DNA of 64,000 nt from Sedimentibacter sp. MB31-C6 (lineage in GTDB: Bacteria; Bacillota; Clostridia; Tissierellales; Sedimentibacteraceae), in NCBI RefSeq assembly GCF_035934735.1, contig NZ_CP142396.1, positions 620,001 to 684,000 of the forward strand. Reading direction: 5' to 3'. The position numbers were made by a program, and so were the translations under genes. The notes below the pieces were generated by a model. The model was not told the origin of the DNA, did no database searches, and worked only from the letters and a program-made list of their open reading frames with translations. Below, piece after piece: positions 3,523 to 22,224 of this stretch (positions are counted from its first letter, which is position 1; each line of letters opens with the position of its first letter).

Positions 3523-4516
3523 TGTTGGTGAGTATTTCTTTTTTAAATTCTATTGTTGTTAAATCTCCTCCAATATCTCTTGTATGCATTTTTTTGTTTT
3601 TTAAGACATTTCTCAATGCATTTTCGATTTTTAACGCAGCTTCATTTTCATTTATATACCTTAATAACAAGATGCCTGATAAAATTGCAGATGTTGGGTT
3701 GGCAATATTTTTACCTGCTATATCAGGTGCTGAACCGTGTACAGGTTCAAATATTGCCATTTCATCTCCTATATTAGCGCTTGGAGTCATACCAAGACCT
3801 CCAATTAAACCTGCTAACATATCAGAAAGTATGTCACCGTATAAATTAGGAGCTACTATAACCTGATAATCATGTGGATTCATTACTAACTTCATAGACA
3901 TTGCATCAACAATAACATCTTCAAATTCAATATCGAGATATTTTAACGCTACATTTCTGCCGGATTCTAAAAATAATCCATCGGTTAATTTCATTATGTT
4001 TGCTTTGTGAGTTAATGTGACTTTATTTCTGTTTTCCTTTTGAGCTAATTTAAATGCAAAATCAGCTATCCTTTCGCTTGCTTTTCTTGTGATAACCTTA
4101 ATGCTTTCGGCAGCATCTTTATTTACCATATGTTCAATTCCTCTGTATAGATCTTCTGTATTTTCTCTAACTATAACCAAATCTAAATTTTTATGAAGGG
4201 ACTCGATACCTTCATATGATTTTACAGGTCTTACATTGGCATATAAATTAAATTTTTGTCTTAACTCTACATTTATACTTCTAAAACCTTTACCAACAGG
4301 TGTTGTTATAGGTCCTTTTAAAACCACTTTATTTGTTTTTATGCTGTTTATAGTTTCTTCTGGCAAAAGAACTCCGCACTTTTCATATGCGATGTTACCT
4401 GCTATTACTTCTTCCCATTCGATATTATCTGTTGCAGCATCTATAATTTCTCTTGCCGCATGCATTATCTCCAAACCTATCCCGTCTCCAGGAATCAATG
4501 TAATTTTTCTTTTCAT
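3518..4516 (-). CDS. icd: isocitrate dehydrogenase, NAD-type
   Basis: Oxidative decarboxylation of isocitrate to 2-oxoglutarate. The 332-aa protein is a complete isocitrate/isopropylmalate dehydrogenase fold: LIPGDGIG at the start, [10 protein letters not shown], the KAN segment, and NLYGDILSD with the metal-binding Asp residues. In [16 protein letters not shown], Asp-Ile occupies the place of the NADP-binding Lys-Tyr of E. coli Icd, so NAD is the likelier cofactor. The ATG is one base from the aconitase stop, with AGAGGG as ribosome site. It is last of a three-gene citrate-to-2-oxoglutarate operon. Its final codon and stop merge into repeat copy A. Isopropylmalate dehydrogenase is the alternative, made unlikely by context. 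Confidence 0.9.
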
Positions 4517-4517
4517 T

Positions 4518-6449: not shown

Positions 6450-6457
6450 GTTGCCTC

Positions 6458-7798
6458 CTATATTGCCTGTTCTGTGTTGCTAAAACTAAAAATAAATAAA
6501 TTTGCCAATTTTTTCATTTCTTCGCTTGATATATTAGTTGTTCTTCCATTTTCATATTCTTCATCTATTTTATTTTTTATGGATAATAACCGTTCATCAT
6601 TTTTATGTATTTTCTTATCGTCTTTTAATTCAAAATAACTGTTAATCCAATAAGCAATGCTTGAAATTCCTGAATATAAGTTAATAGCAACCAATGGTGG
6701 TTTATTAAGTATCTTTCTTGTGTCAAAGCTATTATATATTTCCTCATTCTTCAAAAGACCGTCCGCATGAATTCCTGCTTTTGTTACATTAAACTCGCTG
6801 CCTATATAGGGTGTTTTTGGGGGAATTTCATATTTAAGTTCTTTTTCAAAATATTTTTCTATTTCATTTATTACTTTTAAATTCATTGACTTCACATTAC
6901 CTTTAATTTGAGCATACTCTATAATCATTGCTTCAAGAGGTGTGTTTCCAACTCTTTCTCCTATTCCAAATAATGTTGTGTTTACAGATGAACCTCCATA
7001 CAACCATGAAGTTGTTGAATTAGTTACTGAAGCATAATAATCATTATGACCATGCCATTCTATAAACTCTGAAGGAACTTGTGCATAATACTTAAGTCCA
7101 TGAATAATTGCAGGAACAGATCTGGGCAGTTCAACGCCAATATGAGACACTCCCACACCCAATGTATCGCAGGCTCTAATTTTTACATTTATTTTACTCT
7201 CCATACTCAATTCCATTAGATTTTTAGCCAATGGTACTACAAAACCGTAAAAATCAGCTCTTGTAATATCTTCAAAATGACATCTTGGAATAATTCCATT
7301 TTCCAATGCAACATATACAATATCTAAATACATTTTCATTGCTTCTGATCTTGTTTTATTTAATTTGCTAAATATATGATAATCTGAACAAGACATCAAT
7401 ATCCCTGTTTCTTTTATTCCCATTGATTTAACCAAGTTAAAATCTTCCTTGTTAGCTCTAATCCAAGATGTAATCTCAGGAAATTTATAGTCCTTTTTCA
7501 TGCATTCTTCAACGGCTTTTCTATCTTTTTGCGAATAAAGAAAAAATTCCGTCTGCTTAATTATTCCTGAATCATTATCTAATTCATGAAGAAAATCAAA
7601 CAATTTTACCATCTGTTCAGTATTCATGCTTGTCATAGATTGTTGTCCATCTCTGAAAGTTGTATCGGTTATCCATATATTTTCAGGAGTATTTATAGGA
7701 AGCTGAATATTGTTAAATTTAATTATAGGAATTTCTTCATACGAAAAAATATCTTTATAAAGTTTTGGTTTAATTACATCTATTGAATTATATTTCAT
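6458..7798 (-). CDS. Re-citrate synthase (homocitrate synthase-like)
   Basis: Condenses acetyl-CoA and oxaloacetate to citrate with Re stereochemistry. This enzyme was found in Clostridium kluyveri and belongs to the HMGL/DRE-TIM family rather than the gltA family. The 446-aa protein has the catalytic TTFRDGQQS motif, HFEDITRADFYGF, the metal-binding HGHNDYY motif, and the active-site segment GERVGNTPLEAM. The start is the ATG at 7798, with GGGAGG 6 nt upstream. A longer ORF to 7924 exists, but the consensus promoter at 7883-7911 lies inside it, so that start is excluded. It is first of the citS-acn-icd operon. Homocitrate or isopropylmalate synthase is the alternative; the aconitase/IDH neighbours argue for citrate. 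Confidence 0.87.
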   Translation of the reverse strand: MKYNSIDVIKPKLYKDIFSYEEIPIIKFNNIQLPINTPENIWITDTTFRDGQQSMTSMNTEQMVKLFDFLHELDNDSGIIKQTEFFLYSQKDRKAVEECMKKDYKFPEITSWIRANKEDFNLVKSMGIKETGILMSCSDYHIFSKLNKTRSEAMKMYLDIVYVALENGIIPRCHFEDITRADFYGFVVPLAKNLMELSMESKINVKIRACDTLGVGVSHIGVELPRSVPAIIHGLKYYAQVPSEFIEWHGHNDYYASVTNSTTSWLYGGSSVNTTLFGIGERVGNTPLEAMIIEYAQIKGNVKSMNLKVINEIEKYFEKELKYEIPPKTPYIGSEFNVTKAGIHADGLLKNEEIYNSFDTRKILNKPPLVAINLYSGISSIAYWINSYFELKDDKKIHKNDERLLSIKNKIDEEYENGRTTNISSEEMKKLANLFIFSFSNTEQAI

Positions 7799-7812
7799 CT
7801 TGACCTCCCTAC

Positions 7813-7849
7813 ATGCAACTATATGAAAGTTATTTTTTATTAGTTGCAT
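7813..7849 (-). promoter_or_regulatory. 5' leader hairpin of the Re-citrate synthase operon
   Basis: ATGCAACTA (7841-7849, read on the minus strand) pairs with TAGTTGCAT (7813-7821) across a 19-nt loop. The stem ends two bases before the GTAGGGAGG ribosome site, so its formation could affect access to it. This is a candidate element only. Confidence 0.4.
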
Positions 7850-7882
7850 TTTGTATTTATTATTTTTAATTTCATAAGGCAT

Positions 7883-7911
7883 ATTATAATATCGTTTTGA
7901 GTCTAAGTCAA
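7883..7911 (-). promoter_or_regulatory. sigma-A promoter of the citS-acn-icd operon
   Basis: TTGACT (7906-7911), a 17-bp spacer and TATAAT (7883-7888) read toward Re-citrate synthase, giving a leader of about 78 nt. Confidence 0.8.
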
Positions 7912-8051
7912 GATTAAATTTCATTTTTATTTAATTATTCGCTATTTATTTTATATTTATTGAGGATTTTTGCAATTATTTATTCCATGCTTGCAATTTC
8001 GAAATACCTCGTTTAATCGATTTTATGCAATTTTCTATTTTATTCTTGCAT

Positions 8052-8974: not shown

Positions 8975-10777
8975 CTATTTAACTTGTGATGCTTCTGCTG
9001 CTGCTTTTCCAGCTTGGATTCCCATTGTTGCACTCATTTGAATTGATGATCCTGAGCAAGGATATTGTCTATAAAACAATTCTCCATTGGCTACTTCTCC
9101 TGCAGCATACAGCCCAGATATTGTATCACCTGATGTTGATATTACTTCTGAATTTATATTAACTTTAGGTCCGCCAAATGTTCCAGTAACATAATTTGTT
9201 GGAAATGATATTGCATAATAAGGAGCTTCATCAATAGAAGTCAATAAATTTACTTCCTGAGCAAATTCCGCTCTATTTCCTATCATTCCTACAGCTGGTT
9301 TACCAAAGTCTGTATCCACTTGATTTATACACATTTCATTATAACGTGAAACTGTTTGAGATAAAACATCTGGTTCTATTCCAATTGCTGTTGCAAGTTC
9401 TTCTATTGTATCTGCTTTAAAAGCTGTCCCGTTATTTATTGCTTCTTCTAACCCTTCATTTTCTGTTTTTGAATCTAAGATTCCATAGTAATTATTGAAT
9501 CCTTCCTCAAAATACAAATTAGCTGTTCTTTTAAACCAATAATCATTTTCATTAGCAAAACGAGTTCCTTCTGGTGTTACATTAAGAAAAATTCCACCAG
9601 CATCAGAATATCCGGTAGCACCCATATCCATTGGATTTGCAATCGCACCACCACCAGCAACTATTTCTGCTCCTGCGTCTCTAGCCATAATCAATCCATC
9701 TCCTTGATGAGCTTCCCCAAGGAAAGTACCAAATGCACCTACTGCTGGACTATATTCTTTCATAAGTTCTTCGTTATTTGCATATCCACCTGTTGCTAAT
9801 ATTGTGCTTTTAGCATTAATTGTTATTTTACTTCCTTTATGTTCAGCAATAACACCTTTAATCACTCCATCTTCATTTATTAATGATACAGCCGGTGTTT
9901 CAAGTCTTACATCTACACCATTTTTCTCAGCTGTTTCTAGCAATGGCATTATAAAGTCTTGACCTGTTCCGCTAACTGTTGAATGATTTCTATAAGGTGA
10001 TTGTGCAGGATAATTGTAAGAAAATGTAACGTCGCCAAATGTTACTCCTCTTTCTTTCAACCAATCTACAGTATTACCACTGTTTTCAGCTACAAAGCTT
10101 ATTATTTCTTCATTAACTTTTTCTTGTCCTACTTCTAACCAATAATTTTTCAAATCTTCAGTAGAATCTTCGATTCCTTGATTTTTCTGCATTTCTGTTC
10201 CTGCTGCGATAATTTCTCCACCACAAACTATAGAAGCACCTCCGACGCTTGCCATTTTTTCAAGAAGTACTACTTTAGAACCTTCTTCAGAAGCTGCAAC
10301 AGCTGCAGAAAGACCAGCAATACCACCGCCAACTACAACAACGTCTGTTTCAATTACTTCATCTTCAGTAGCTGTTTCTTCTAAACCTTTGTTTTTAAGA
10401 TTATCAATATCTCCTCCTGCTTGTTCTAAGCAAGCAGTTACTGCTTCAATAATTGCATTACTTGTTAGCGTTGCACCAGACACAGCATCTACTTTTAAAC
10501 CTTGTGCACTTATTATATCTGCAGGTATTTTTTCAATTGCAGGATCTGATAATCCTGGTGTTTCATTATGATTCAATACTTTGACTGATTCAATTGAATT
10601 ATCTGATACAACTACCTCAACTTCAACATCTCCTCCCATACCTTGTGCCTTTGATGTATAAGTTCCCTTACTAAACAAAGCTGACTCATCAGTAGATGAA
10701 GTATTGCTACAGCCAGCTATACCAAACATCATTGCAAAAACTAATATTACTGATAAAATTTGTTTGATTTTTTTCAT
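8975..10777 (-). CDS. exported flavocytochrome c/fumarate-reductase-type flavoprotein (FMN-binding + FAD)
   Basis: Predicted cell-surface lipoprotein reductase of the fumarate/urocanate/acrylate type, which would use an organic acid as electron acceptor. The signal peptide ends in lipobox GIAGC (Cys23). An FMN-binding domain follows at about 37-118, with the ApbE flavinylation motif VDAVSGATLTS (97-107). Then comes an FAD-binding domain from about 144 to the C-terminus (DVVVVGGGIAGLSAAVA, with a late GGPKVN motif). No haem CxxCH is present, so electrons would come through the covalent FMN. The substrate is not determined by what I can see. It starts 49 nt after a TetR-family gene on the same strand, with which it is probably co-transcribed. 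Confidence 0.87.
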   Translation of the reverse strand: MKKIKQILSVILVFAMMFGIAGCSNTSSTDESALFSKGTYTSKAQGMGGDVEVEVVVSDNSIESVKVLNHNETPGLSDPAIEKIPADIISAQGLKVDAVSGATLTSNAIIEAVTACLEQAGGDIDNLKNKGLEETATEDEVIETDVVVVGGGIAGLSAAVAASEEGSKVVLLEKMASVGGASIVCGGEIIAAGTEMQKNQGIEDSTEDLKNYWLEVGQEKVNEEIISFVAENSGNTVDWLKERGVTFGDVTFSYNYPAQSPYRNHSTVSGTGQDFIMPLLETAEKNGVDVRLETPAVSLINEDGVIKGVIAEHKGSKITINAKSTILATGGYANNEELMKEYSPAVGAFGTFLGEAHQGDGLIMARDAGAEIVAGGGAIANPMDMGATGYSDAGGIFLNVTPEGTRFANENDYWFKRTANLYFEEGFNNYYGILDSKTENEGLEEAINNGTAFKADTIEELATAIGIEPDVLSQTVSRYNEMCINQVDTDFGKPAVGMIGNRAEFAQEVNLLTSIDEAPYYAISFPTNYVTGTFGGPKVNINSEVISTSGDTISGLYAAGEVANGELFYRQYPCSGSSIQMSATMGIQAGKAAAEASQVK

Positions 10778-10826
10778 GTCTTCTCTCCCTATTTTTTTTA
10801 TATGAAGGTTTTACCCATTCACAACA

Positions 10827-11411
10827 TTATTTTCTAATACTATCAACAGTTGCTTCTATCATTTTTTCTAAAAGTGCTTCATCTTTCAATACATGTTTAT
10901 TATTTTTAACATATGTAGAGATTCCTTCAACCGCACTAAAGAAAACATTACATAAGAATTCTAATGGTAGTTGTTTAAATTCTCCCATTTCTACTCCTGT
11001 CTTTACAAATTCCTTATTAATTTCATACGACCTAGAAAATGCCACATTTTCTGTTCCAACAACATTTACAGGTTTATAGTATGCTCTGGCAATTGAAGAT
11101 TCCTTTGGAAATTCTATATTCCATAATAATATATTCTTAACTCTTTTTTTCAACTTGTCGCTACTGCTTTTTTGAACTTCTACATCTTTCATAGAAGCTT
11201 CGATATGTAAATTAAAACAATAATTAAAAATATAAGAAACTAAATCATCTCTGTTTTTAAAATACAAATATATTGTTCCCTTGGCTATTCCTGCCTCATT
11301 TGCTATTTGTTGAATGCTCGTATTATCTATACCTTGATTATAAAATAACGTAATTGCTGCATCTCTAATTTTAATATACTTTTTTGGATCCAAAGACGTA
11401 TAACGAGCCAT
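10827..11411 (-). CDS. TetR-family regulator
   Basis: A 194-aa TetR/AcrR protein. The N-terminal helix-turn-helix covers about 12-58 (AAITLFYNQGIDNTSIQQIANEAG, then KGTIYLYFKNRDDL). The remaining helices form a ligand-binding domain of no recognisable specificity. Its own gene is preceded by a perfect palindromic operator ending 17 bp before the ATG, so autoregulation is likely. Control of the downstream flavoprotein reductase is inferred from the shared transcript. The AGGAGG site supports the start. Confidence 0.88.
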   Translation of the reverse strand: MARYTSLDPKKYIKIRDAAITLFYNQGIDNTSIQQIANEAGIAKGTIYLYFKNRDDLVSYIFNYCFNLHIEASMKDVEVQKSSSDKLKKRVKNILLWNIEFPKESSIARAYYKPVNVVGTENVAFSRSYEINKEFVKTGVEMGEFKQLPLEFLCNVFFSAVEGISTYVKNNKHVLKDEALLEKMIEATVDSIRK

Positions 11412-11695: not shown

Positions 11696-12775
11696 TTATT
11701 TTTCAAGAGCTTTAAGCAAGGAATCCACATATTCTTGTCCTATTTCTGCACCTATTGAATCATATACTCCCTGCGCCTTAGTTAATACTTGTTCTATAAA
11801 ACTTGCATCAAATTCAACCAATTTCATTCCACCATCTATCAATTTTTGCTTATTAGTAACATCGATTTCTGCAAGCTTCGCCTCAATTTCTACTGCAGCT
11901 TCATCAACAGCCTGCTGAAGTGCATCTTGGTACATCGGGTCAAGGCTGTCAAATTTTTCAGCACTAATAAGGAACTGATTGCAATACAATATATGATGGG
12001 TCATGATCAAGTAATCCTGAACTTCCTGAAGGTTTGCTCCTATACAAGTATCTGTAGCATTTTCCTGTGCATCTACCAGACCTTGCTGCAAAGATACGTA
12101 TACCTCTGACCATGCAAGAGGCGTAGGTGCTGCGCCCATTAACTGCCAAAATGCCATGTGATTCTTATTCTCCATAGTTCTTATCTTCAATCCGTTAAAG
12201 TCATCAATCGTTGAAATATTTTTGTTAGAAGTTGTCTCTCTGAATGTTCCTCCTTGAAGAAAGTGAAGACAGTACATGTTTTTTGCTTTATAAGCCTCGT
12301 TAATTTTTTCTGTGAATTCACTTTTGTTAAGTGCATAGTCAATAGTTGCTGCATCATACTTCGCAAACACCATCGGAAGATCAAAAATAGCAACCTCTGG
12401 AACAAAAGATACTGTTTGTGCAGTCTGTGCAATTACAAAGTCAATATCTCCCGCAAGCATCTGTGCCTGAAGTTCTTGGTCATTTCCAAGCTGACTGTTT
12501 GGGAAATAATCTATTGTCAATTTTCCTCCAGTGATTTCTGATACCCTTTTTGTTATAAGTTCCCCATAAAGCTGTGCTGCAGCACCAACACCGGCATTAT
12601 CAGCACCTATAAGAACTACCGGTTCTAGTGATTCATACCCTCCTTCTTCTAATTCTGGCTGTTCAGACGGTTGTTCAGAAGGCTGTTCTGACGTAGGTGC
12701 AGGTGTATTTTGTGTACATGCAACAGGCGCTAAAACCATTGTTGTTGCCAATAATATAATTAATATTTTTTTCAC
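11696..12775 (-). CDS. dctP: TRAP transporter substrate-binding lipoprotein (DctP family)
   Basis: Captures a carboxylate solute outside the membrane for the DctQM permease. The 359-aa product has a lipoprotein signal with lipobox LAPVAC, then a Ser/Glu/Pro/Gln linker containing SEQP repeats, then the DctP fold. The conserved ligand Arg lies in FNGLKIRTMENKNH, followed by the typical LAWSEVYVSLQQGLVDAQEN segment. The GTG at 12775 is chosen because GGGAGG lies 8 nt before it; an ATG seven codons upstream has no ribosome site. It is last in the operon. The ligand is unknown; the conserved Arg implies a carboxylate. Confidence 0.9.
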   Translation of the reverse strand: MKKILIILLATTMVLAPVACTQNTPAPTSEQPSEQPSEQPELEEGGYESLEPVVLIGADNAGVGAAAQLYGELITKRVSEITGGKLTIDYFPNSQLGNDQELQAQMLAGDIDFVIAQTAQTVSFVPEVAIFDLPMVFAKYDAATIDYALNKSEFTEKINEAYKAKNMYCLHFLQGGTFRETTSNKNISTIDDFNGLKIRTMENKNHMAFWQLMGAAPTPLAWSEVYVSLQQGLVDAQENATDTCIGANLQEVQDYLIMTHHILYCNQFLISAEKFDSLDPMYQDALQQAVDEAAVEIEAKLAEIDVTNKQKLIDGGMKLVEFDASFIEQVLTKAQGVYDSIGAEIGQEYVDSLLKALEK

Positions 12776-12819
12776 TTTTATTCCTCCCTTTCTCATTTTT
12801 TATTTTTCCTTGAATCCAT

Positions 12820-14103
12820 TTAAAGAAATGCAAGACTTATCCATGGTATATATGTAATGATAAACAACGTTATACCAAATGCAAAAATAAAAGGTAATGC
12901 TCTTTTTGCCACGTTCATTGGAGGGGTGTCAGACAATGTTCCTGCTACAAACAGATCCAGACCAAATGGCGGTGTTGCTAAGCCTATGGATAGGCAACAC
13001 ACCATAATAACCCCAAAGTGAACAGGATGCACACCCATAGATTGAACTGCAGGCAGCAATATGGGTGATAAAATAACGATTGCAGGACCAGTATCCATGA
13101 CCATCCCAAGTAACAGAAATATTACAGCTATACCTGTCAGTACCGAAAAACTTGATGTGAAATTGTTCAAAATGAAGCCTTCAATGAGATTCGGCGCCTT
13201 CGCCAATGCCAAAACTCTTCCAAAAGCAGTTGCAAATGCAAGCACAAAGCACAATGGTGCATATGTTCTTACAGCTTTTGCTAGGAAGGGAATTATTTCT
13301 TTAACTGTAAATGACTTGTATACAACCAATGAAACAAACAGAGAATAGAATACTGATATACAAGCAGCCTCAGTAGGTGTTACAAAGCCAGAATAAATAC
13401 CACCCAACACAATAACCGGTGAAAGTAATGCCCAGAAACTCTCCTTAAAAAGCTTTACAAATCCATTACTTCTAAGCTCTTTCATTTTATGGTTAATCTT
13501 TTGTTTATCTTCTCCCTTTTTTTTGCAATATAATACCGTGTAGATCATCATTCCAATACCTATAAGAATTCCTGGCAATATACCTCCCAAAAAGAGAGCT
13601 CCAGTAGAAACCCCCGTTGCAAGCGAGTAGAGGACAAAAGGTATGGATGGTGGGATAATTACTCCAAGACCACCTGAAGTAGCAACCATGCCCGCTGACC
13701 AGGTTTTATCATAACCCATCTCAACCAAGAATGGAATAGTCATGGAACCAACAGCCGCCGTCGTTGCAGGACCAGAGCCAGAAATTGCTCCATAGAACAG
13801 ACAGGTCAATATAACTGCACAGGGAAGCCCTCCGGTTAAATTGCCTACAAAGTAAGCAAAGAAGTTAAATAACCTTCTGGATATTCCTCCCTCAGCCATA
13901 AGAACTCCTCCCAATATGAACAGAGGTACTGCTAAAATAGGGGTTGTGTCTGACCCTGAAAAGCTGTTTGCAATCAACTGTTGAATTGAGCTCCCGGTAC
14001 CGCCAAGTACAAGAGGTGTCATTGCACCAATCACCATACTAATAGCAATGGGCACAGCAAATACCAAACCTACCATAAATACCATAAATATACACAAAGC
14101 CAT
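12820..14103 (-). CDS. dctM: TRAP transporter large permease (DctM family)
   Basis: The channel subunit of a Na+-coupled TRAP transporter. The 427-aa protein is hydrophobic throughout, with about 12 membrane segments and family motifs such as AISGSGPATTAAVGSMTIP, FVTPTEAA and GLATPPFGLDLFV. Its ATG overlaps the DctQ stop by one base (TAATG), with GGAGG inside the end of dctQ, so the two are translationally coupled. Confidence 0.93.
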   Translation of the reverse strand: MALCIFMVFMVGLVFAVPIAISMVIGAMTPLVLGGTGSSIQQLIANSFSGSDTTPILAVPLFILGGVLMAEGGISRRLFNFFAYFVGNLTGGLPCAVILTCLFYGAISGSGPATTAAVGSMTIPFLVEMGYDKTWSAGMVATSGGLGVIIPPSIPFVLYSLATGVSTGALFLGGILPGILIGIGMMIYTVLYCKKKGEDKQKINHKMKELRSNGFVKLFKESFWALLSPVIVLGGIYSGFVTPTEAACISVFYSLFVSLVVYKSFTVKEIIPFLAKAVRTYAPLCFVLAFATAFGRVLALAKAPNLIEGFILNNFTSSFSVLTGIAVIFLLLGMVMDTGPAIVILSPILLPAVQSMGVHPVHFGVIMVCCLSIGLATPPFGLDLFVAGTLSDTPPMNVAKRALPFIFAFGITLFIITYIPWISLAFL

Positions 14104-14681
14104 TACACATCACCTCCTGATAAATTTAATCTGTCATCAAGCTCAACACCTGTGGCCTGTACTTCCTCTTTGGCTTCCTTGAGAGTAGCTTCCAAAGTTG
14201 TTTCAACTTTTTCGTTAAAATTCCTAATGTTATTTACTATTTCTTGCACCATCCTTATTGAAGATAACCCAAATCCAATTACAGTAGACAGATACATAAT
14301 CCACATGGGTATGTTCATTGCCGGTGAAAACTGCCCTGTCACCCGAATTTTATTGGTATAGACAATCGCATACCTAAATAAAATCACAAACAATACAAGC
14401 ATAATAACGTTTACCAAAATCTCTATGGTTCTTCTTACCTTTTGAGGCAACAAGTCCATTACAATTCCAACTTTCAACATGTTTCTTTTTTTAATGGTAT
14501 AACTAAGTGATAAAAAAACGGTCCAAATGTAGCAATATCTTGAAAATTCCTCAGGCCAAGTCATTGAGTTGAAAAAGGTTCGAGCAAATATTTGTGCCAT
14601 CATTACACTTGATATGGAAGCAAGTAAAAGCACTAAGATGGCTTCTTCAAAGTGTTCATCCAACCATTTAATTGCTGACAT
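14103..14681 (-). CDS. dctQ: TRAP transporter small permease (DctQ family)
   Basis: A 192-aa four-helix membrane protein with the DctQ signature (FARTFFNSMTWPEEFSRYCYIWTVFL split across helices 1-2) and a charged C-terminal tail. It docks on DctM. The start at 14681 is set by AAAGGAGG 7 nt upstream; a TTG eight codons earlier has no ribosome site. It links the upstream enzymes to the transporter in one operon. Confidence 0.9.
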   Translation of the reverse strand: MSAIKWLDEHFEEAILVLLLASISSVMMAQIFARTFFNSMTWPEEFSRYCYIWTVFLSLSYTIKKRNMLKVGIVMDLLPQKVRRTIEILVNVIMLVLFVILFRYAIVYTNKIRVTGQFSPAMNIPMWIMYLSTVIGFGLSSIRMVQEIVNNIRNFNEKVETTLEATLKEAKEEVQATGVELDDRLNLSGGDV

Positions 14682-14734
14682 TTCATTTCCTCCTTTCCTC
14701 TGCAAGTATTTGTATAGATATTAAGGTTAGTTTA

Positions 14735-15607
14735 TTATTTCCCTGAAAGGATATCCATGAGCTCCAGCCGCATCGCTTCCACAGGAGCGGTTTCTCCACT
14801 CCAAAGTTCAATCTGCTCAGCTCCCTGATATAAAGACATACCTAAGCCATTCATTATAATGCAGCCCATTTCCTCAGCCTCCATCAGAAACCGCGTTTTG
14901 GATGGATTGTAGGTTGCATCAAAACACAACTGACCAGAACGAAGATATTCCTTAGGTATTGGAGTTTCTCCAAGACTCGTAATCATACCGAGTCCAGTAT
15001 TGTTCATTATAACGTCTGACTCAGCGATTTTATCCTTCACTAAAACTGAATCTTTAATATTAACCAGCTCTGCAACCGGTACAAAATTATCGTTTACCTC
15101 ATCAACTAACACCTTGACTTTTGAAAGAGTTCTACTTGCTATATATATCTTTTTAGCACCATAATATGCTAATACACTACATATTGCTCTGGCTGCACCC
15201 CCTGCTCCTATACAGAAAAAAGTGGATTCATTCACTTTTATATCCTGAATTTCCTCTTTTAGTGCCCTATAAAATCCTATTCCGTCTGTATTGTACGCTT
15301 TCAATCTACCATCCGGTAACTTAACAACGGTATTACTGGCATTCATCTTTTCGCAAAGTGGATCCTTTTCATCAACGTACTTCATTATCTCGACTTTGTT
15401 AGGCTTTGTCACAGCAAAACCGGCAAAGTTCATATACCTTATTCCATTTACTACATCAAGCAGATGGTCGTTTTCCACCTCTGAGTAGAAATACAACATA
15501 TCAATTCCAGCAGCCTTGTATGCTGCATTCTGCATTCTTGCAGCATAAGATTGCGCCAAAGGCTTTCCGAGCAATGCAATCATTCTTGTATTTATACTGA
15601 CAGACAT
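14735..15607 (-). CDS. AroE-like shikimate/quinate-type dehydrogenase
   Basis: An NAD(P)-dependent hydroxyl dehydrogenase of the shikimate dehydrogenase family, 290 aa. The N-terminal substrate domain has GKPLAQSYAARMQNAAYKAAG in place of the canonical SxSxxxHN segment, and FAVTKPNK in place of NVTIPHK, with the catalytic Lys kept. KAYNTDGIGF supplies the conserved Asp. The Rossmann domain has GAGGAARA at about 135-142. The changed substrate residues and the location in a catabolic operon suggest a hydroxylated ring or acid other than shikimate. It overlaps the end of the isomerase gene by 16 nt and has its own GAGGAGG site, so it is translationally coupled. Confidence 0.83.
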   Translation of the reverse strand: MSVSINTRMIALLGKPLAQSYAARMQNAAYKAAGIDMLYFYSEVENDHLLDVVNGIRYMNFAGFAVTKPNKVEIMKYVDEKDPLCEKMNASNTVVKLPDGRLKAYNTDGIGFYRALKEEIQDIKVNESTFFCIGAGGAARAICSVLAYYGAKKIYIASRTLSKVKVLVDEVNDNFVPVAELVNIKDSVLVKDKIAESDVIMNNTGLGMITSLGETPIPKEYLRSGQLCFDATYNPSKTRFLMEAEEMGCIIMNGLGMSLYQGAEQIELWSGETAPVEAMRLELMDILSGK

Positions 15608-16467
15608 TCTATCTCCTCCTCATTATTGTTTCCTGAAGATGTCACCTCTAGCTGTTCTATATCTGCCATTAGCAATTTAGCTGTTAAGATACACCTTGCA
15701 ACATGTCCTGCTGCTCCTCTAAGTTCCATCTCTTTTGAATTTGGAAGTTCTATTGATATAGGATTGTTTGGCATAGCTAAAAGCATACCTTTAAGGTCTA
15801 TTTCACCTTCTCCTGCATATAGTCTTCCTTCCCTTGCAACGCCAATCATAGAAGGGTCCTCTAATGAAGGAATTTCTCCAGGACCATCACAAAGATGAAT
15901 AAATCCAAATCTTTTTTTGTCTACCTTATCTAAGTCAGCAGGGCTGACATTAGATCTATGTGCATGAAGTGTATCTACCATCAAATAGGCATTGGGACGA
16001 TCAACTCTGTCAAGGACTTCCAAAGCATCCTTAAGCCCCGTGATGCCTGAGAAAGTTACAAATTCAAGATTTACCTTCAAATTGTACTTGGCTGCCAAAT
16101 CACAAATCTTCTCAAATTCTCTGAAAGAGAATTCCTTATCTTTACTCCAAATGCTGGACAGCACATCAGTTGCACCAAGCTCAGCTCCTGCAGCAAATGC
16201 AGATTCATAGTCATAAACGTTTAAATCCTCTCTGACTCGTGCAAGTTCAATATCCATAAGCTTTATGCCATTTTCAGTTAATGCTGTTCTTATCTCTCTG
16301 AACAATTTCTTATCCAAATCAAATTGATACAAAGGTTCATTTGGAAGATGCATAGGAATTGGCCTAAGACTGACAAAATCATATCCAGCCTCAGCAGCAA
16401 TCTTTATCTGGTCAACCGGACTTGTTCCGGGTATAGTAAGATAAGCAAGCGAAAACTTTCTTGTCAT
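15592..16467 (-). CDS. sugar-phosphate isomerase/epimerase-like TIM-barrel protein
   Basis: A 291-aa AP-endonuclease-2-type TIM barrel, the fold of IolE/IolI, hydroxypyruvate isomerase and 3-dehydroshikimate dehydratase. Likely metal ligands come in the expected order: Glu in NLEFVTF, Asp in MVDTLHAHRS, His in FIHLCD and Glu in SIELPN. It would isomerise, epimerise or dehydrate a hydroxy-keto intermediate. It lies between the ThDP enzyme and the AroE-like dehydrogenase, and has AGGAGG before the ATG. The C-terminal 20 residues are acidic and probably disordered. Exact reaction unknown. Confidence 0.8.
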   Translation of the reverse strand: MTRKFSLAYLTIPGTSPVDQIKIAAEAGYDFVSLRPIPMHLPNEPLYQFDLDKKLFREIRTALTENGIKLMDIELARVREDLNVYDYESAFAAGAELGATDVLSSIWSKDKEFSFREFEKICDLAAKYNLKVNLEFVTFSGITGLKDALEVLDRVDRPNAYLMVDTLHAHRSNVSPADLDKVDKKRFGFIHLCDGPGEIPSLEDPSMIGVAREGRLYAGEGEIDLKGMLLAMPNNPISIELPNSKEMELRGAAGHVARCILTAKLLMADIEQLEVTSSGNNNEEEIECLSV

Positions 16468-16490
16468 ATTTGTCCTCCTTTTAAATAATA

Positions 16491-18308
16491 CTATTTGTGC
16501 GAAACAGAATGATTTGGCGGCTGGTACTCGCCCTTTTCATTCTTTAACAATTTTCCATTAACTATGCCAGGTTTAGGTATATAAATATCATTAATGTTCC
16601 AACATCCAGGTGTAGGCACTACTATATTTTCCATTGGAACATCCAACAAGTATGGCTTGTTGCAGCTTATAGCCTTTTTTAATTCAGGCTTGAAATCATC
16701 TGCAGATTTTATCTTTATTGCATCTACTCCATAAGCCTTGGCTACCTCAGCCCAATTTGGCGAATAAGGTTTTCCATCAGGCATAGTGAATACAGTCCCG
16801 AATTTTGTCTTATAATTTGCGTATTCCAACCCTGCAATTGTTCCGAATGCTGAGTTGTTCATAACTACCCAAACCACAGGAATATTTTGCTCTACAGCCG
16901 TAGCCAATGCACCTGGATTGACTCCAAAACCTCCGTCACCTACTAGCGTCAACACTACCTTGTCTGGTGCTGCCAGCTTTCCGCCAATCAAAGCAGATCC
17001 TCCAAATCCCATAGTAGCTAAACCAGAGCTATGGTGAATTGTACCAGGGATTGTGATATCAAATTGCTGCGCCACGCCATTTTTATTCCAGCCTACATCT
17101 GTAAAAATGATTGCATCCTCAGGGATAACCGCCTTGACATCCTTCAATATTCTCTGGGGAGTCATAGGGAACCTTCCGTCTTCTGAAATTTCAATATTCG
17201 ATTCTTTGAATTGAGTACGGTTTACTTTTATTATTTTCCTTAGCTCCGGTCTATCTATACCTTCCGGCAATAGAATTTTAGCTTCCTCAAGAATCTGAGT
17301 TAGTGCCAGCTTCAAATCAGCAATCGCACCAATTGCCACCGGATAGTTTCTGCCTATTTCCGCTGGATCAATATCTATCTGAAGAAATTCCGTCTTGTTC
17401 ATATCAAAGGTAACTCCTGTATACCAGCTTGAACTGTCTGCTTCTGCAAAGCGAGTGCCTAACCCCAATAATACATCAGCATTCGCTGTAAATCTGTGGG
17501 TAAACTCAATACCCCAAAATCCAGTTTGCCCAAGCATCAACGGATGTGTATCTGATATACATCCTTGCCCCATCAGTGTTCTTGATACCGGAATATCCAA
17601 AAATTCAATAAGTTTCTGAAGCTCCATTGATGCTTCTGCAAGCAATATTCCACCGCCAGCATGAATAACCGGATTCTTGGCTTCAATAAGCTTTTTTGCT
17701 ATAGCTTTTGCAGCTGAAGGTGCCAATGCAGGCTTAATTGTTTCAAAGCTATCTTTAAATGTACGAGCAAACAATTCTTCTTCTATTTCTGTTGAAAATA
17801 CGTCCATAGGAATGGATATAAGTACCGGTCCAGGTCTCCCACTTTCAGCCAACCTAAAAGCCTTGTCTAAGATTTCAGGAAGTGCTTCAGCATCATCAAT
17901 TCTCCAAACTCTTTTTACAATAGGTTTAAGTATTTCATATTGGGAAGCATCCGAATGCAAATTAACCTCCTGATGAGGATGTTTGCCATAATAATACCTT
18001 GGAACGTCACCTGCTATAACCACCATGGGGATAGAATCAAAAGATGCATTCGCAACTCCAGTAACAGCATTTGCCAAACCAGGCCCCAAGTGACAAAGTA
18101 CCACTCCTGCTTTTTTCTTAATTCTTGCATAACCGTCGGCAGCCATTGCTGCAAGCTGCTCATTCCTGAAAGATATATACTTTATCTTTCTACTTCTTGA
18201 CAAAGCATCCAGAAATCCAATCAAAGTATGCCCGCACAATCCAAAAACATATTCTGTATTCCGCCTTTCCAAATATTCAACCATTTGCTCAGAAATAAAT
18301 CTTTTCAT
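16491..18308 (-). CDS. thiamine-diphosphate-dependent enzyme (acetolactate synthase-like)
   Basis: A 605-aa ThDP enzyme with all three domains. Catalytic Glu50 lies in RNEQLAAMAADGYAR; the middle domain is at about 190-330; the ThDP-binding GDGGFG...NN motif is near 465-495. The fold covers acetolactate synthase, glyoxylate carboligase, sulfoacetaldehyde acetyltransferase, IolD and cyclohexane-1,2-dione hydrolase. No regulatory subunit or branched-chain genes are nearby, so biosynthetic acetolactate synthase is unlikely. Between a CoA-acylating aldehyde dehydrogenase and a TIM-barrel/AroE pair, it probably splits or decarboxylates a 2-oxo compound to give an aldehyde. AAGGAGGG precedes the ATG. 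Confidence 0.85.
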   Translation of the reverse strand: MKRFISEQMVEYLERRNTEYVFGLCGHTLIGFLDALSRSRKIKYISFRNEQLAAMAADGYARIKKKAGVVLCHLGPGLANAVTGVANASFDSIPMVVIAGDVPRYYYGKHPHQEVNLHSDASQYEILKPIVKRVWRIDDAEALPEILDKAFRLAESGRPGPVLISIPMDVFSTEIEEELFARTFKDSFETIKPALAPSAAKAIAKKLIEAKNPVIHAGGGILLAEASMELQKLIEFLDIPVSRTLMGQGCISDTHPLMLGQTGFWGIEFTHRFTANADVLLGLGTRFAEADSSSWYTGVTFDMNKTEFLQIDIDPAEIGRNYPVAIGAIADLKLALTQILEEAKILLPEGIDRPELRKIIKVNRTQFKESNIEISEDGRFPMTPQRILKDVKAVIPEDAIIFTDVGWNKNGVAQQFDITIPGTIHHSSGLATMGFGGSALIGGKLAAPDKVVLTLVGDGGFGVNPGALATAVEQNIPVVWVVMNNSAFGTIAGLEYANYKTKFGTVFTMPDGKPYSPNWAEVAKAYGVDAIKIKSADDFKPELKKAISCNKPYLLDVPMENIVVPTPGCWNINDIYIPKPGIVNGKLLKNEKGEYQPPNHSVSHK

Positions 18309-18328
18309 TGTCTTGCCCTCCTTTAGAC

Positions 18329-19795
18329 TTATCCTTCTCTATAAGGTTCATAGAATTCTCCGAACAATTCATCATCACTTGGTTTATCCTCGGGAATTTC
18401 CCTAGATACCCAAGTTACATTCATATAATGTTGCAGATGTACATTTTCTGAAGTTGCATTACCTCCCCAAGTTCCGCATCCTATGCTTGAAGTCATAGGC
18501 ATGCCATTTGTGAAGGATCCGGCATTTGATTTTGATTGGGGCTGTCTAACCATTATTCTGCCAACTTGGGCTTCAAGGGCAAGTCTGTGAATATGATTTT
18601 CATCGTATGAGTATATTCCGACGCTATGTCCCTTACCTCCCACTTCATGAATAGCTTTAACTATATCTATTGCATTTTGAAATTCTCCTTCATATTTATG
18701 AACTGCCAAAAGTGTTGTCAACTTTTCACGGCACCATGTGTCTTCGTAATTTGATGTATACTTCCCAGTTCCTATTGCTATAAGAAACTTCCTATCCTCC
18801 GGAATTTCAATTCCTGCAAGCTTTGCCATTGTCTGCGGCGATTGTGCCACAGAATCTGCCAATCTGTGGCATTCCTCATCCCACATTATTTTTTTTACTT
18901 TCTCCTGCTCGTTCTCATTCAGCAAATATCCTCCTACCTCTACCAAAGCTTTTATTCCTTCATCGTAAATGCTATGGTGAATAATTACATTGCCGTCCGC
19001 TGAGCATCCCGATCCAAAGTCCGAAGTCTTTGAAAGCATCGTATTGTACGAAGCCTGTATCAATTCGTCTTTGGCTGTCTCATCCCAAATCATTGTTGCA
19101 TTACCTGCTCCAACACCATATGCAGGTGTCCCTGAATGATATGCCCTTCTTACAACACCTTGCCCGCCTGTTGCTATTACCAAATCACATTTAGTGTTTA
19201 ATGCTTCTGACATAGACTTGTTTATTTTAGCCTTTCCCTGTCCCAATATCTGAATCAAATCCTCCGGAGCTCCTACTTGTCTCAATCCTTCTCTCATCAA
19301 TTCTATTGTCTTGCCACCGGTTTTAATTGCTCTAGGATGCGGAGAAAATATTATTGCATTTCTAGCCTTAAGCGCATATATAGCATTCCCCGCAGGTGTC
19401 AGGTCTGGGTTTGTCGCAGGTACTACACAAGCTATAACTCCTACCGGCTTTGCATATTTTACAATTCCCTTTGAGTGAATTTCCTCAATAATACCAACGC
19501 TTTTCTGTCGCAGAGCGTCTCGCAATACACCTCTTATCTTATATTTCTTATTTTCACGGCTTACGGGATCTCCCATTTTGCTTTCCTCAATGCTCATGGC
19601 AACCAACTCCTTAAAGGTTTGCGTATTAGCTACCTTCCATGCTATTGCCTTTATAGCTCTATCAATGTCTTCCTGTTTCCACTTTTCAAAAATTCTTTGG
19701 GCTGCGTCAGCTTTAGCAAATTTCTCCTCAATTTCGTTAATCTGATCTTGGTTAAGCTTTGCGTAAACCTCTTCCGTCGAACTCATTCTACTCAT
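18329..19795 (-). CDS. CoA-acylating aldehyde dehydrogenase
   Basis: Oxidises an aldehyde to its CoA thioester with NAD(P)+. The 488-aa protein matches the EutE/SucD/SauS group: KPVGVIACVVPATNPD, a nucleotide site around GQGVVRRA, catalytic Cys in FGSGCSADGN, and the C-terminal GCGTWGGNATSENVHLQHY region. These enzymes act on acetaldehyde, succinic semialdehyde or sulfoacetaldehyde; residues alone do not decide here. It is the second gene of the operon, just upstream of the ThDP enzyme whose aldehyde product it could take. There is no microcompartment targeting extension. Ribosome site AAGGAGG. Confidence 0.88.
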   Translation of the reverse strand: MSRMSSTEEVYAKLNQDQINEIEEKFAKADAAQRIFEKWKQEDIDRAIKAIAWKVANTQTFKELVAMSIEESKMGDPVSRENKKYKIRGVLRDALRQKSVGIIEEIHSKGIVKYAKPVGVIACVVPATNPDLTPAGNAIYALKARNAIIFSPHPRAIKTGGKTIELMREGLRQVGAPEDLIQILGQGKAKINKSMSEALNTKCDLVIATGGQGVVRRAYHSGTPAYGVGAGNATMIWDETAKDELIQASYNTMLSKTSDFGSGCSADGNVIIHHSIYDEGIKALVEVGGYLLNENEQEKVKKIMWDEECHRLADSVAQSPQTMAKLAGIEIPEDRKFLIAIGTGKYTSNYEDTWCREKLTTLLAVHKYEGEFQNAIDIVKAIHEVGGKGHSVGIYSYDENHIHRLALEAQVGRIMVRQPQSKSNAGSFTNGMPMTSSIGCGTWGGNATSENVHLQHYMNVTWVSREIPEDKPSDDELFGEFYEPYREG

Positions 19796-19887
19796 TTTTT
19801 CCTCCTTTAAATCTTATGATTACGAATTAGCTGAATGCTTCATAAGTTCAGATATTTGTGATATATTGTTATTGAAAACGATTGCCT

Positions 19888-20799
19888 TTACTTTATTAAA
19901 TCCTTTGAACGACCTGCTTTCAAAAGGTAAGAGTCAGCCTCATGTCCAAGCAGGTCCTGCATAAACATTGCTATATCTAAAAGCTTAATCACATCAATTC
20001 CTGTCTTTATTCCCATCTCTTCCATCATATGAACAACATCTTCAGAAGAAACATTGCCAGCTGCTCCTGGGACAAATGGGCATCCGCCAAAGCCACCTAT
20101 GGATGAGTCAAAATTTGTTATTCCTGCTTCCATAGCAGCTACGATATTTGCTATAGCCATCCCTCTAGTATTATGGAAATGCAGCCACCACTTTACAACC
20201 GGATATTTCATCTTCATTGAACTGCACATATCATAAACTTGGTTTGGAGTAGCCATTCCTGAAGCGTCAGACAATGAAATTTCTTTTATTCCTACATTTA
20301 AATACGATTCAACTATACTTTCCACATCTTCAATCGGAATTACTCCCTCCCACGGAGATCCAAAGGGCATAGATATTGACCCAGAAACTTCTAATCTATT
20401 TTTTAAAGCCAAGCTAACGTTTTCATCGAAACCAGCAACAGTTTGCTCTGGTGTTTTGTTTATATTAGCAATGTTATGTCCTTTACTGGCGGAAACATTG
20501 AGCTTAATTTTGCGGCAACCGCAGTCGATAGCCCTTTGTACGCCTTTTTTATTAGCCACAAGCGCTCGAAACTCCACATCCGTTACATTGTTAAGTTGCC
20601 TATAAAGCTCATCTGTGTCTGCCATCTGCGGAACTGCTTTTGGGCTCATAAAAGAACCTAATTCTATTACTTTGAAGCCTGCCTCAACTAAGCCGGTAAC
20701 CAGCTTTAGTTTCTCTAATGTATCCAATATCTTGGGCTCACTTTGCAAACCATCTCTCAAGCCAACCTCACATAAACTTACTTTCAAAGGAAGTTTCAA
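19888..20799 (-). CDS. HMG-CoA lyase-like enzyme (DRE-TIM family)
   Basis: Probable acyl-CoA lyase that cleaves a 3-hydroxy-acyl-CoA into acetyl-CoA and a keto acid. The 303-aa protein has GLRDGLQSE near the start, the metal-binding HFHNTRG motif, and the HMG-CoA lyase loop GGFGGCPFVPGAAGN with its catalytic Cys, followed by SSEDVVHM. A TTG start is inferred because GGGGTG lies 8 nt before it; the frame is open ten codons further with no ribosome site. It is first of the eight-gene operon, 92 nt from the next gene. HMG-CoA lyase of leucine catabolism is the nominal identity; the neighbours suggest a related substrate. Confidence 0.83.
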   Translation of the reverse strand: MKLPLKVSLCEVGLRDGLQSEPKILDTLEKLKLVTGLVEAGFKVIELGSFMSPKAVPQMADTDELYRQLNNVTDVEFRALVANKKGVQRAIDCGCRKIKLNVSASKGHNIANINKTPEQTVAGFDENVSLALKNRLEVSGSISMPFGSPWEGVIPIEDVESIVESYLNVGIKEISLSDASGMATPNQVYDMCSSMKMKYPVVKWWLHFHNTRGMAIANIVAAMEAGITNFDSSIGGFGGCPFVPGAAGNVSSEDVVHMMEEMGIKTGIDVIKLLDIAMFMQDLLGHEADSYLLKAGRSKDLIK

Positions 20800-20848
20800 C
20801 TTTATTTCACCCCTTTCAAGAATATACAATAATTTATATTTTTACAAA

Positions 20849-20877
20849 ATTTTATCTTAATAATCTTTGTAAGTCAA
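20849..20877 (-). promoter_or_regulatory. promoter of the lyase-TRAP operon
   Basis: TTGACT (20872-20877), a 17-bp spacer and TAAAAT (20849-20854) read into the HMG-CoA lyase-like gene. Confidence 0.65.
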
Positions 20878-20898
20878 ATACCAGTTTTATATAATAAC

Positions 20899-20915
20899 CA
20901 TAGAGTACTTCTATG
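20899..20915. promoter_or_regulatory. LysR-type (T-N11-A) binding site
   Basis: CATAGA-N5-TCTATG is an exact inverted repeat containing T-N11-A. Its centre is about 65 bp before the expected transcription start of the minus-strand operon, the usual place for an LTTR recognition site. The LysR gene is divergent. Confidence 0.65.
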
Positions 20916-20924
20916 ATTGAATTA

Positions 20925-20970
20925 TAGAATTTTTAGATACATTATATATATAATGTATCTAAAAATTCTA
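20925..20970. repeat. 46-bp perfect palindrome in the divergent promoter region
   Basis: TAGAATTTTTAGATACATTA and onward reads the same on both strands over 46 bp with no unpaired centre. No T-run follows on either side. It sits in the 543-bp gap between the catabolic operon and the LysR gene. From 20971 to 21342 I see only a possible LysR promoter (GAGACA 21219-21224, TATAAT 21242-21247). Confidence 0.85.
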
Positions 20971-21342
20971 AAACCACTGAAACTAATCGATTTAGACTCC
21001 TGAACCTTTTTTATTTATTTCGGTTCTTTGCAATTAAAATTAGGATATCAATTGTCTGAGAGTAAGTAAAAATATAGGTTTAGACAGATATTTTGTCGAA
21101 TTTTATCAAAAATAACAAACCTCCCTGATAATAATTAAATAAGGAATATACAATTAATCAAATAAAATACTACCGATTAATTCGTTACTTAAAGCTTATT
21201 GTTAAAAACAATACAATAGAGACAATTTATTATTAATGTGGTATAATTACTTAACATATCAAGGTATATTATTGCATGGTTAACCTGTTCTGCATATTAA
21301 CAACTAAAAGCACTCATTACAGAGTATAATAAGGAGGTTAAA

Positions 21343-22224
21343 ATGACACTACAGCAATTGCATTACTTCCGCGTTTTAGCAAAAATACAACATTATACTA
21401 AGGCTTCGGAAATACTACTAATTTCTCAACCAAGCTTAAGTTATGCAATATCCCAGTTAGAAAAGGAATTAAATGTACCATTGTTCGAAAAACACGGAAA
21501 AAAGATAAAATTAAGTCATCAAGGAGAACGATTTCTTAATTATGTTGAGAAATCACTAGATATATTGGATGAAGGAACAAAGATGCTTAAAACACTTACA
21601 GATCCTTCGACAGGAACGGTTACCCTTGGCTATATCTATAGCGTCAGCTCAAAATTCATTCCAGAAATGATTAATAAATTTTATAAAAATGATGCTAATA
21701 AATTAGTTAAATTTTCTTTGGTACAAAACGTAAGCGAATACCTTTTGCGAGATTTAAAAACTAATAAAATCGACTTAATATTTTGTCCAAAACTTGATAA
21801 AAGCTTAAAGTCTGTGCCTATTAGCAAACAACAACTTTATCTGATCGTATCTAAAAGTCATCCATTCGCCTTAAGAAAAGATGTTGAAATTTCAGAATTA
21901 ATCGGCGAACCTTTTATACACCTAAATAGAAATAGTTCTTTAAGAGATACAATTGATGATATGTTTGAACAATTGCATATAAAACCTAATATCGTTTTAG
22001 AGGCAGAGGAATGTAATGCTGTTATTTCCTTTGTATCTCTTAACCTTGGCATTGCCATAGTCCCTGAAATACCTTCTATGAGCAACCAAATTGTTACGGT
22101 AAAAATAAGAGACTGTGTGTTAGAAAGAAAAATTTACATGCATTGGACAAATGAAAAATATATGTCACCGACTGTAATTAAAACTAGAGATTTTATTATT
22201 AACAATTACACTCTTTCCAAATGA
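21343..22224 (+). CDS. LysR-family regulator
   Basis: A 293-aa LysR-type protein. The winged helix lies at 1-60 (LHYFRVLAKIQHYTKASEILLISQPSLS), followed by a linker helix and a periplasmic-binding-like effector domain from about 90 (TVTLGYIYSVSSKF). It is divergent from the lyase-ThDP-TRAP operon and faces a T-N11-A site there. It is therefore the likely activator, with a pathway metabolite as inducer. AAGGAGG lies 6 nt before the ATG. Confidence 0.9.
   Translation: MTLQQLHYFRVLAKIQHYTKASEILLISQPSLSYAISQLEKELNVPLFEKHGKKIKLSHQGERFLNYVEKSLDILDEGTKMLKTLTDPSTGTVTLGYIYSVSSKFIPEMINKFYKNDANKLVKFSLVQNVSEYLLRDLKTNKIDLIFCPKLDKSLKSVPISKQQLYLIVSKSHPFALRKDVEISELIGEPFIHLNRNSSLRDTIDDMFEQLHIKPNIVLEAEECNAVISFVSLNLGIAIVPEIPSMSNQIVTVKIRDCVLERKIYMHWTNEKYMSPTVIKTRDFIINNYTLSK

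Follow-up and report, generated by a model that had tools for sequence, protein, structure and literature searches.

In myo-inositol degradation, IolG oxidizes a ring alcohol to a ketone, the triosephosphate isomerase (TIM) barrel protein IolE dehydrates the keto-inositol to a 1,2-diketone, and the thiamine diphosphate (ThDP)-dependent IolD hydrolyzes the ring to an aldehyde-acid in which the original keto carbon has become the aldehyde and the new one the carboxylate. Cyclohexane-1,2-dione hydrolase also forms an aldehyde-acid, and we know of no acyl-coenzyme A (CoA) or lyase step that continues from it. An excerpt of PMC12247030 describes this Azoarcus enzyme as cleaving a C-C bond of a cyclic 1,2-diketone with ThDP, and its H28A/N484A variant as able to couple pyruvate with ketones. 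Here, we analyzed a 64,000-nucleotide stretch (the window) of the 3.02 Mb genome of Sedimentibacter sp. MB31-C6 (contig NZ_CP142396.1, positions 620,001 to 684,000), in which eight packed genes encode a lyase resembling 3-hydroxy-3-methylglutaryl-CoA (HMG-CoA) lyase, an acylating aldehyde dehydrogenase (ALDH), a ThDP enzyme, a TIM barrel, an AroE-like dehydrogenase and a tripartite ATP-independent periplasmic (TRAP) carrier. From these proteins and their relatives we infer that the operon likely encodes an undescribed anaerobic, non-aromatizing pathway for quinate and shikimate degradation via homocitryl-CoA. The proposed route resembles inositol degradation in its order of oxidation, dehydration and ring hydrolysis, but its substrate would be a carboxylated hydroaromatic acid, its ThDP enzyme falls in a separate clade and is not an IolD, and its ring-opening product would pass to an acyl-CoA and a lyase, whereas that of inositol passes to a phosphorylated sugar acid and an aldolase.

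Plants are rich in the acids quinate and shikimate, and quinate is released from chlorogenate. Their aerobic catabolism (quinate dehydrogenase, AroD, 3-dehydroshikimate dehydratase and protocatechuate) shares with the proposed route the entry enzymes and the dehydroquinate/dehydroshikimate node; the proposed route, in contrast, would involve no aromatization or oxygenase and would end in acetyl-CoA and 2-oxoglutarate. Brune and Schink are said to have reported in 1992 that fermenting bacteria degrade quinate and shikimate without aromatic intermediates, and we know of no genes for this non-aromatic fermentative route. Our searches of open-license PMC papers, some of which were weak, found no description of such a pathway and no paper with both homocitryl-CoA and a lyase.

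To search for the cluster in other genomes, as the original prediction had proposed, we used the TIM-barrel protein as the probe, in the form of a profile for the genus and phylum. The probe matched 11 of 41 relatives and, by rank, 7 of 391 genomes in the class, 11 of 25 in the genus and 4 of 398 in the phylum (each count includes the source genome), as well as 2 of 15 genomes in the class of genome G446. A scan of named genomes gave seven loci, six of them on contigs that match in length those of genomes already counted, including those of Lutispora thermophila DSM 19022 and Anoxynatronum buryatiense, the others coming from metagenome-assembled genomes of Tissierellia, Clostridiales and Thermoanaerobacterales. 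After removal of overlaps, 21 distinct genomes carry the gene set, either complete or truncated at contig ends. The TIM match shares its contig with at least one further gene of the set in all 21, and its contig and cluster with a ThDP gene of the clade described below in 20; in the remaining genome (L027) the contig stops about 150 bases past the TIM gene, and several other cluster contigs also end early. Thirteen genomes carry a cluster close to that of the source (A-type; ThDP enzyme 81-90% and ALDH 84-90% identical where seen). The other eight are B-type or mixed, with TIM barrels 45-49% and ThDP enzymes 62-70% identical, except for the A-type ThDP enzyme of G012. The eight-gene set is thus more than a chance array: the operon is real and conserved, and it is probably catabolic. 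In the window, all eight genes lie on the minus strand with gaps of at most 92 bases and two overlaps, and they carry the expected Pfam domains, in agreement with the initial reading of the locus.

The lyase gene (20829-19888) is the first in transcription order. Its product matches PF00682 at 164.1 bits and passes the NCBIfam HMG-CoA lyase subfamily model NF004283 (308 bits, cut-off 246), and homocitrate synthase models match it weakly (84.1 bits). Residues R25, D26, E56, H217, H219, C250 and N259, which we take to be catalytic by analogy with human HMG-CoA lyase, are invariant in nine of nine aligned rows. A lyase gene lies beside pathway genes in 17 of the 21 genomes and was not seen on the early-ending cluster contigs of G796, G195, G001 and G011. 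It is of the HMG-CoA lyase-like (HMGL) type in 16 of these 17 clusters. The 17th, contig L059 of G446, which also holds ALDH, ThDP, TIM, AroE and AroD genes, carries in its place a 292-residue protein of the citrate synthase family that passes the NCBIfam citryl-CoA lyase equivalog (347.5 bits, cut-off 261); its open reading frame (ORF), as mechanically called, overlaps the aroD ORF by 11 bases. Profile searches of 11 cluster-bearing genomes found HMGL-like proteins in nine and none in G446 and G011 (E ≤ 1e-20), and a citryl-CoA-lyase-like protein in G446 alone (E ≤ 1e-10). The exchange in L059 looks like a non-orthologous replacement.

The exchange suggests that the operon enzyme should split a 3-hydroxy-3-carboxy-acyl-CoA into acetyl-CoA and a 2-oxo acid, and a cyclohexane with a tertiary hydroxyl and a carboxyl group, combined with a lyase of this type, points to homocitryl-CoA as the substrate. 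HMG-CoA lyase, citryl-CoA lyase and homocitrate synthase all perform retro-Claisen or Claisen reactions on tertiary 3-hydroxyacyl-CoAs; the DRE-TIM lyase of the operon differs in that it is proposed to cleave homocitryl-CoA catabolically, as a homocitryl-CoA lyase.

The sequences themselves show the gene set, its conservation, the enzyme families, the neighboring AroD genes and the lyase exchange; the substrates and reactions are all inferred. The remaining genes can be arranged into a route that would lead to this substrate. DctPQM would import quinate (and shikimate in sister clusters), and the AroE-like enzyme would oxidize quinate at C3 to 3-dehydroquinate, which shikimate could reach via 3-dehydroshikimate and AroD. 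The TIM barrel would take the C4 proton and the C5 hydroxyl from 3-dehydroquinate, in a reaction like that of IolE with keto-inositol and those of 3-dehydroshikimate dehydratases, and the resulting enol would give 1-hydroxy-3,4-dioxocyclohexane-1-carboxylate; because C1 is sp3, this step could not aromatize the ring. The ThDP enzyme would then add to the C3 keto group and hydrolyze the C3-C4 bond, C3 becoming an aldehyde and C4 a carboxylate, to yield homocitrate semialdehyde, OHC-CH2-C(OH)(COOH)-CH2-CH2-COOH. The ALDH would convert this product to homocitryl-CoA, and a retro-Claisen cleavage by the lyase would release acetyl-CoA and 2-oxoglutarate. The predicted net reaction is quinate + CoA + 2 NAD(P)+ -> acetyl-CoA + 2-oxoglutarate + 2 NAD(P)H. 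With the opposite regiochemistry of ring opening, the thioester would carry its hydroxyl at position 4, out of reach of either lyase type, so the IolD-type outcome, in which the carbon that was already a ketone becomes the aldehyde, would be the only one that a 3-hydroxyacyl-CoA lyase could use. Natural homocitrate has the R configuration and 3-dehydroquinate is 1R; because the priority order at the carbon centre is kept, (1R)-3-dehydroquinate would give (R)-homocitryl-CoA, as assigned by hand.

The original prediction had outlined carboxylate import, AroE-like oxidation, TIM-barrel dehydration, ThDP-dependent cleavage to an aldehyde, acylation and a lyase step, an outline that fits the comparative evidence. 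Among its suggested substrates, hydroxylated cyclohexane carboxylates, handled in a manner like that of IolD or cyclohexane-1,2-dione hydrolase, fit as well; there is less support for cyclitols lacking a carboxylate, for sulfonated acids and for branched acids, given the AroD genes in related clusters and the citryl-CoA lyase of L059. The homocitryl-CoA intermediate and the end products were not part of that prediction. With slightly less confidence than for the pathway as a whole, we consider it probable that a new clade of ThDP ring hydrolases opens hydroaromatic plant acids without aromatization, that homocitryl-CoA lyase evolved at least twice (HMGL type and citryl-CoA-lyase type), and that the products are acetyl-CoA and 2-oxoglutarate, which would make this a complete new pathway of central relevance to anaerobes. 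If this is true, the operon would be the first gene set known to us, with a stepwise chemistry, for the non-aromatic fermentation of quinate and shikimate; it would establish a new branch of ThDP ring hydrolases as well as a catabolic role for homocitryl-CoA, and would allow annotation of genomes and metagenomes in which such genes match models for acetolactate synthase (ALS), HMG-CoA lyase and shikimate dehydrogenase.

The gene for the AroE-like protein (15607-14735) overlaps the TIM-barrel gene by 16 bases. The protein contains PF08501 and SDH_C domains and passes TIGR00507 (213.3 bits, cut-off 200.2). Its substrate residues had been predicted to be altered, and indeed the A-type rows read QSYAARMQ where the canonical motif is HSxSPxMH, and VTKPNK in place of, for example, VTMPHK. 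The SxS carboxylate motif is thereby lost, with Ala at the second Ser position in all 11 A-type rows; the proteins of L030, L033 and L036 keep the canonical carboxylate motif. The Lys and Asp that presumably serve in catalysis are kept in 21 of 21 rows. The source genome has a separate AroE and AroD pair at 1.69 Mb, the AroE of which passes an equivalog model (446.5 bits, cut-off 431), so the operon gene is an extra copy and probably not biosynthetic. Three clusters (L030, L059 and L060) include genes for type I dehydroquinate dehydratase that pass TIGR01093; in L030, aroD lies 311 bases after the DctP gene on the same strand. In L024 (A. buryatiense), an AroD and a further AroE are found on the far side of the LysR gene, next to an ORF that reads by eye as chorismate mutase-shikimate kinase. 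Some clusters mix types: L036 combines an A-type ThDP piece (87% identity over 247 residues) with a B-type TIM barrel and AroE, and L032 and L060 combine an A-like AroE with a B-type TIM barrel. This mixing fits one shared TIM substrate, 3-dehydroquinate, whether the AroE is A-type (QSYAAR) or canonical (HSKSP), and we propose that the AroE-like protein is a quinate dehydrogenase.

The TIM-barrel gene (16467-15592) follows the ThDP gene after 23 bases, and its product is a xylose-isomerase-like protein (PF01261) whose best solved-structure match by sequence has an E value of 1.1e-7. E135, D165, H191 and E240, which we take to be candidate metal ligands by analogy with xylose-isomerase-like enzymes, are invariant in nine of nine rows. 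The structural model (mean predicted local distance difference test score, pLDDT, 78.2) matches IolI, Lmo2234, sugar epimerases and the TIM-barrel fusion 5hmq, and the 3-dehydroshikimate dehydratase AsbF is among its fold matches. As modeled, the protein thus appears to have the IolE/3-dehydroshikimate dehydratase-like fold with a candidate metal site, and we propose that it is a 3-dehydroquinate C5-dehydratase. We also considered that it might be an ordinary 3-dehydroshikimate dehydratase that forms protocatechuate, with the ThDP enzyme, ALDH and lyase serving a separate downstream or unrelated pathway. This would agree with the superfamily and fold that it shares with AsbF and the 5hmq fusion and with a weak match to QuiC (E 8e-5; 21.3 bits, cut-off 1200), but the clustering of the TIM gene with a clade ThDP gene in all but one genome speaks against it, and protocatechuate would leave a ThDP hydrolase, an acylating ALDH and a citryl-CoA-type lyase without an obvious task. 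We therefore regard the protocatechuate route as very improbable.

The ThDP enzyme (18308-16491, 20 bases after the ALDH gene) has three TPP domains and is named by no equivalog among the NCBIfam models listed (best score 404.5 bits, cut-off 866). We built a midpoint-rooted tree of 24 rows (15 cluster members, three ALS, Gcl, PoxB, Oxc and three IolD), in which the 15 cluster members form one clade with support 99/99 and a stem of 1.51. Clustering with authentic ALS had been named as a result that would speak against the predicted pathway; the clade stands apart, and the operon enzyme has 28.9-31.9% identity to the three ALS. Identity as an authentic ALS was rejected, as the enzyme misses the TIGR00118 cut-off (391.6 bits, cut-off 538), belongs to its own clade and has His112, present in 15 of 15 clade rows, where three of three ALS rows have the Phe of the FQE motif, presumably an active-site residue. 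An IolD orthologue was also rejected: the enzyme is separate from IolD in the tree and, at 23.5-24.5% identity, is not an IolD. The IolD (trihydroxycyclohexanedione hydrolase) family TIGR04377 is not among the 25 families listed for the protein, and the source genome has no match to it at E ≤ 1e-100 (cut-off 715 bits).

In one MAFFT alignment, all 15 clade rows and all three IolD rows share His27 (the G-H position) and the GD of AGDVP, whereas all three ALS rows have G-G and G-Q at these positions. The catalytic Glu50 is likewise present in every clade row, and the three IolD rows have this Glu too. The predicted site thus resembles that of IolD in the GH His, the GD motif and the catalytic Glu, and we propose that the enzyme is a ring-opening 1-hydroxy-3,4-dioxocyclohexane-carboxylate hydrolase. 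The AlphaFold model was poor (mean pLDDT 54.6) and was not used.

Several observations weigh against these assignments. For the ThDP enzyme, the tree program flagged long branches meeting in the tree, the overall identity is higher to ALS than to IolD, and the closest solved structures by sequence are BbmA (281.9 bits), on whose function we found nothing in papers, and acetolactate synthases; cyclohexane-1,2-dione hydrolase scores lower (169.6 bits). For the TIM barrel, the match to IolE is weak (hhalign probability 78.5, E 1.7e-5); by fold it comes nearest to IolI and epimerases, with AsbF at rank 50. These points bear on a different cut of the same substrate, in which the TIM barrel isomerizes the 3-keto-4-hydroxy pair, the ThDP enzyme acts as an acyloin lyase (retro-benzoin) to give a dialdehyde, and the lyase releases acetyl-CoA and a C5 hydroxy-oxo aldehyde. 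Sugar epimerases and isomerases among the nearest structures of the TIM barrel, and a ThDP enzyme nearer to ALS and Gcl than to IolD, would suit such a route. It leaves a second aldehyde, however, that no gene of the set obviously removes, since clusters in which an ALDH is seen have just one, L024 excepted, while the route with a dehydratase leads to two central metabolites; we consider the acyloin-lyase route unlikely.

Other difficulties for the proposed quinate route concern the AroE-like enzyme and its neighbors. According to an excerpt of PMC7752791, in plant quinate dehydrogenases Thr381Gly is sufficient to confer quinate activity and Ser338Gly enhances it; A-type AroE keeps Thr at the first position in 11 of 11 rows and has Ala, not Gly, at the second. 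With the Ser position altered and the Thr kept, quinate is a putative substrate of the A-type enzyme. By a rule given in the same excerpt, 10 of 11 A-type rows have a sequence (NRT or SRT) that looks like the NADP motif NRT and not an NAD motif, and a catabolic AroE would be expected to use NAD. AroD occurs in only three of the 21 clusters, although several contigs are short; in L060, where aroA and aroC come after it, it may be biosynthetic, and the stretches read for L033 contain a canonical-type AroE and no AroD. The G024 cluster has no ALDH in the stretches read, and the lack of an HMGL-like match noted above for G011 concerns a draft genome that is 87% complete.

A Gfo/Idh/MocA oxidoreductase gene lies beside the cluster in four of the 21 genomes (L021 1386-2582, L028 14520-15692, L033 7857-9035 and L035 1364-2557), the copies being 51-83% identical, and this enzyme may admit a quinate stereoisomer. 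Together with the altered AroE-like site, its presence could also mean that the substrate is another hydroxylated cyclohexane carboxylate or cyclitol (of inositol type, or an aminoshikimate-like acid) that undergoes similar chemistry and bypasses 3-dehydroquinate; the L021 copy is weakly similar to levoglucosan and inositol dehydrogenases, far under their cut-offs. However, AroD genes occur in three clusters and a citryl-CoA lyase gene replaces the lyase gene in L059, which indicates the dehydroquinate node and a ring that bears a tertiary hydroxyl and carboxyl group. We therefore judge this other kind of substrate improbable and favor quinate and shikimate.

The ALDH gene (19795-18329) follows the lyase gene after 92 bases. 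The protein (PF00171) is named by no equivalog among the NCBIfam models listed; its best model is that of the acylating sulfoacetaldehyde dehydrogenase SauS, NF047625, at 435.5 bits (cut-off 600), a cut-off that the ALDHs of L059 and L088 also miss (450.4 and 448.5 bits). Among solved structures, the acetylating succinate-semialdehyde dehydrogenase 8cei is nearest to it in sequence, and we propose that it is a CoA-acylating homocitrate-semialdehyde dehydrogenase. The best models for ALDH and lyase, SauS and HMG-CoA lyase, would also be compatible with a sulfonate or branched-acid pathway, in which a SauS-kind ALDH acts alongside a ThDP-dependent 2-oxo acid decarboxylase and an HMGL on an HMG-like CoA. 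We hold such a pathway, which the original prediction had listed among its options, to be highly improbable: the SauS cut-off is missed, a citryl-CoA lyase takes the place of the lyase in L059, and AroE, AroD and the TIM barrel would be left without a role. Where any ALDH is seen, the clusters carry a single one, except for L024 (15005-16429), where a second acylating ALDH, 59.5% identical to that of the operon, follows the DctP gene.

The last three genes of the operon encode the TRAP small permease DctQ (14705-14103, 29 bases after the AroE-like gene; PF04290), the large permease DctM (14103-12820, overlapping the DctQ gene by one base; PF06808) and the solute-binding protein DctP (12796-11696, 23 bases after the DctM gene; PF03480). 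DctM passes TIGR00786 (372.5 bits, cut-off 268.45). The closest solved relatives of DctP are TRAP binding proteins for sialate and for unnamed ligands; these do not fix its ligand, and we propose that it binds quinate or shikimate. The G446 cluster has a TctCBA carboxylate importer in place of the TRAP carrier.

A LysR-type regulator gene (21343-22224, plus strand; PF00126 and PF03466) diverges from the operon across a 513-bp gap, at the place given for it in the initial reading. LysR proteins 39-68% identical to it adjoin eight other clusters, and a LysR fragment with 31% identity adjoins a ninth. Between the lyase and LysR genes lies a near-perfect palindrome with 26-bp arms (20922-20973); the matching region of seven other loci has no arms of that length, and three of the seven have shorter inverted repeats. 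Consensus scans were uninformative for both promoters (34 promoter-like sites against 39.5 in shuffles) and terminators (4 terminator-like sites against 6.6).

Downstream of the operon, a flavoprotein gene and a TetR-like gene (8975-11411) were considered as members of the system and dropped, as they have no homologue (E ≤ 1e-5) in the compared cluster loci. The flavoprotein, encoded on the minus strand, has FMN_bind and FAD_binding_2 domains and a signal-peptide-like start and resembles flavocytochrome c/fumarate reductase; the TetR-like gene, recognized by eye, lies upstream of it. About 4 kb from the operon, minus-strand ORFs (3518-7924) read by eye as an isocitrate-type dehydrogenase, an aconitase and a DRE-TIM synthase that carries TDTTFRDGQQ and resembles Re-citrate or homocitrate synthase; judging from these readings, they likely form a 2-oxoglutarate-making module. 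In genome G024 (L043 8476-12086), genes for a GlcD-like FAD enzyme (178.1 bits, below the glcD cut-off of 567.9), EtfB and a 4Fe-4S EtfA directly follow the HMGL gene. This set could possibly be an electron-bifurcating 2-hydroxyacid dehydrogenase and, as a single case, would fit electron disposal on a 2-oxo acid. Just upstream of the L059 cluster, an ORF (1216-2643) reads by eye as a group II intron reverse-transcriptase-like protein.

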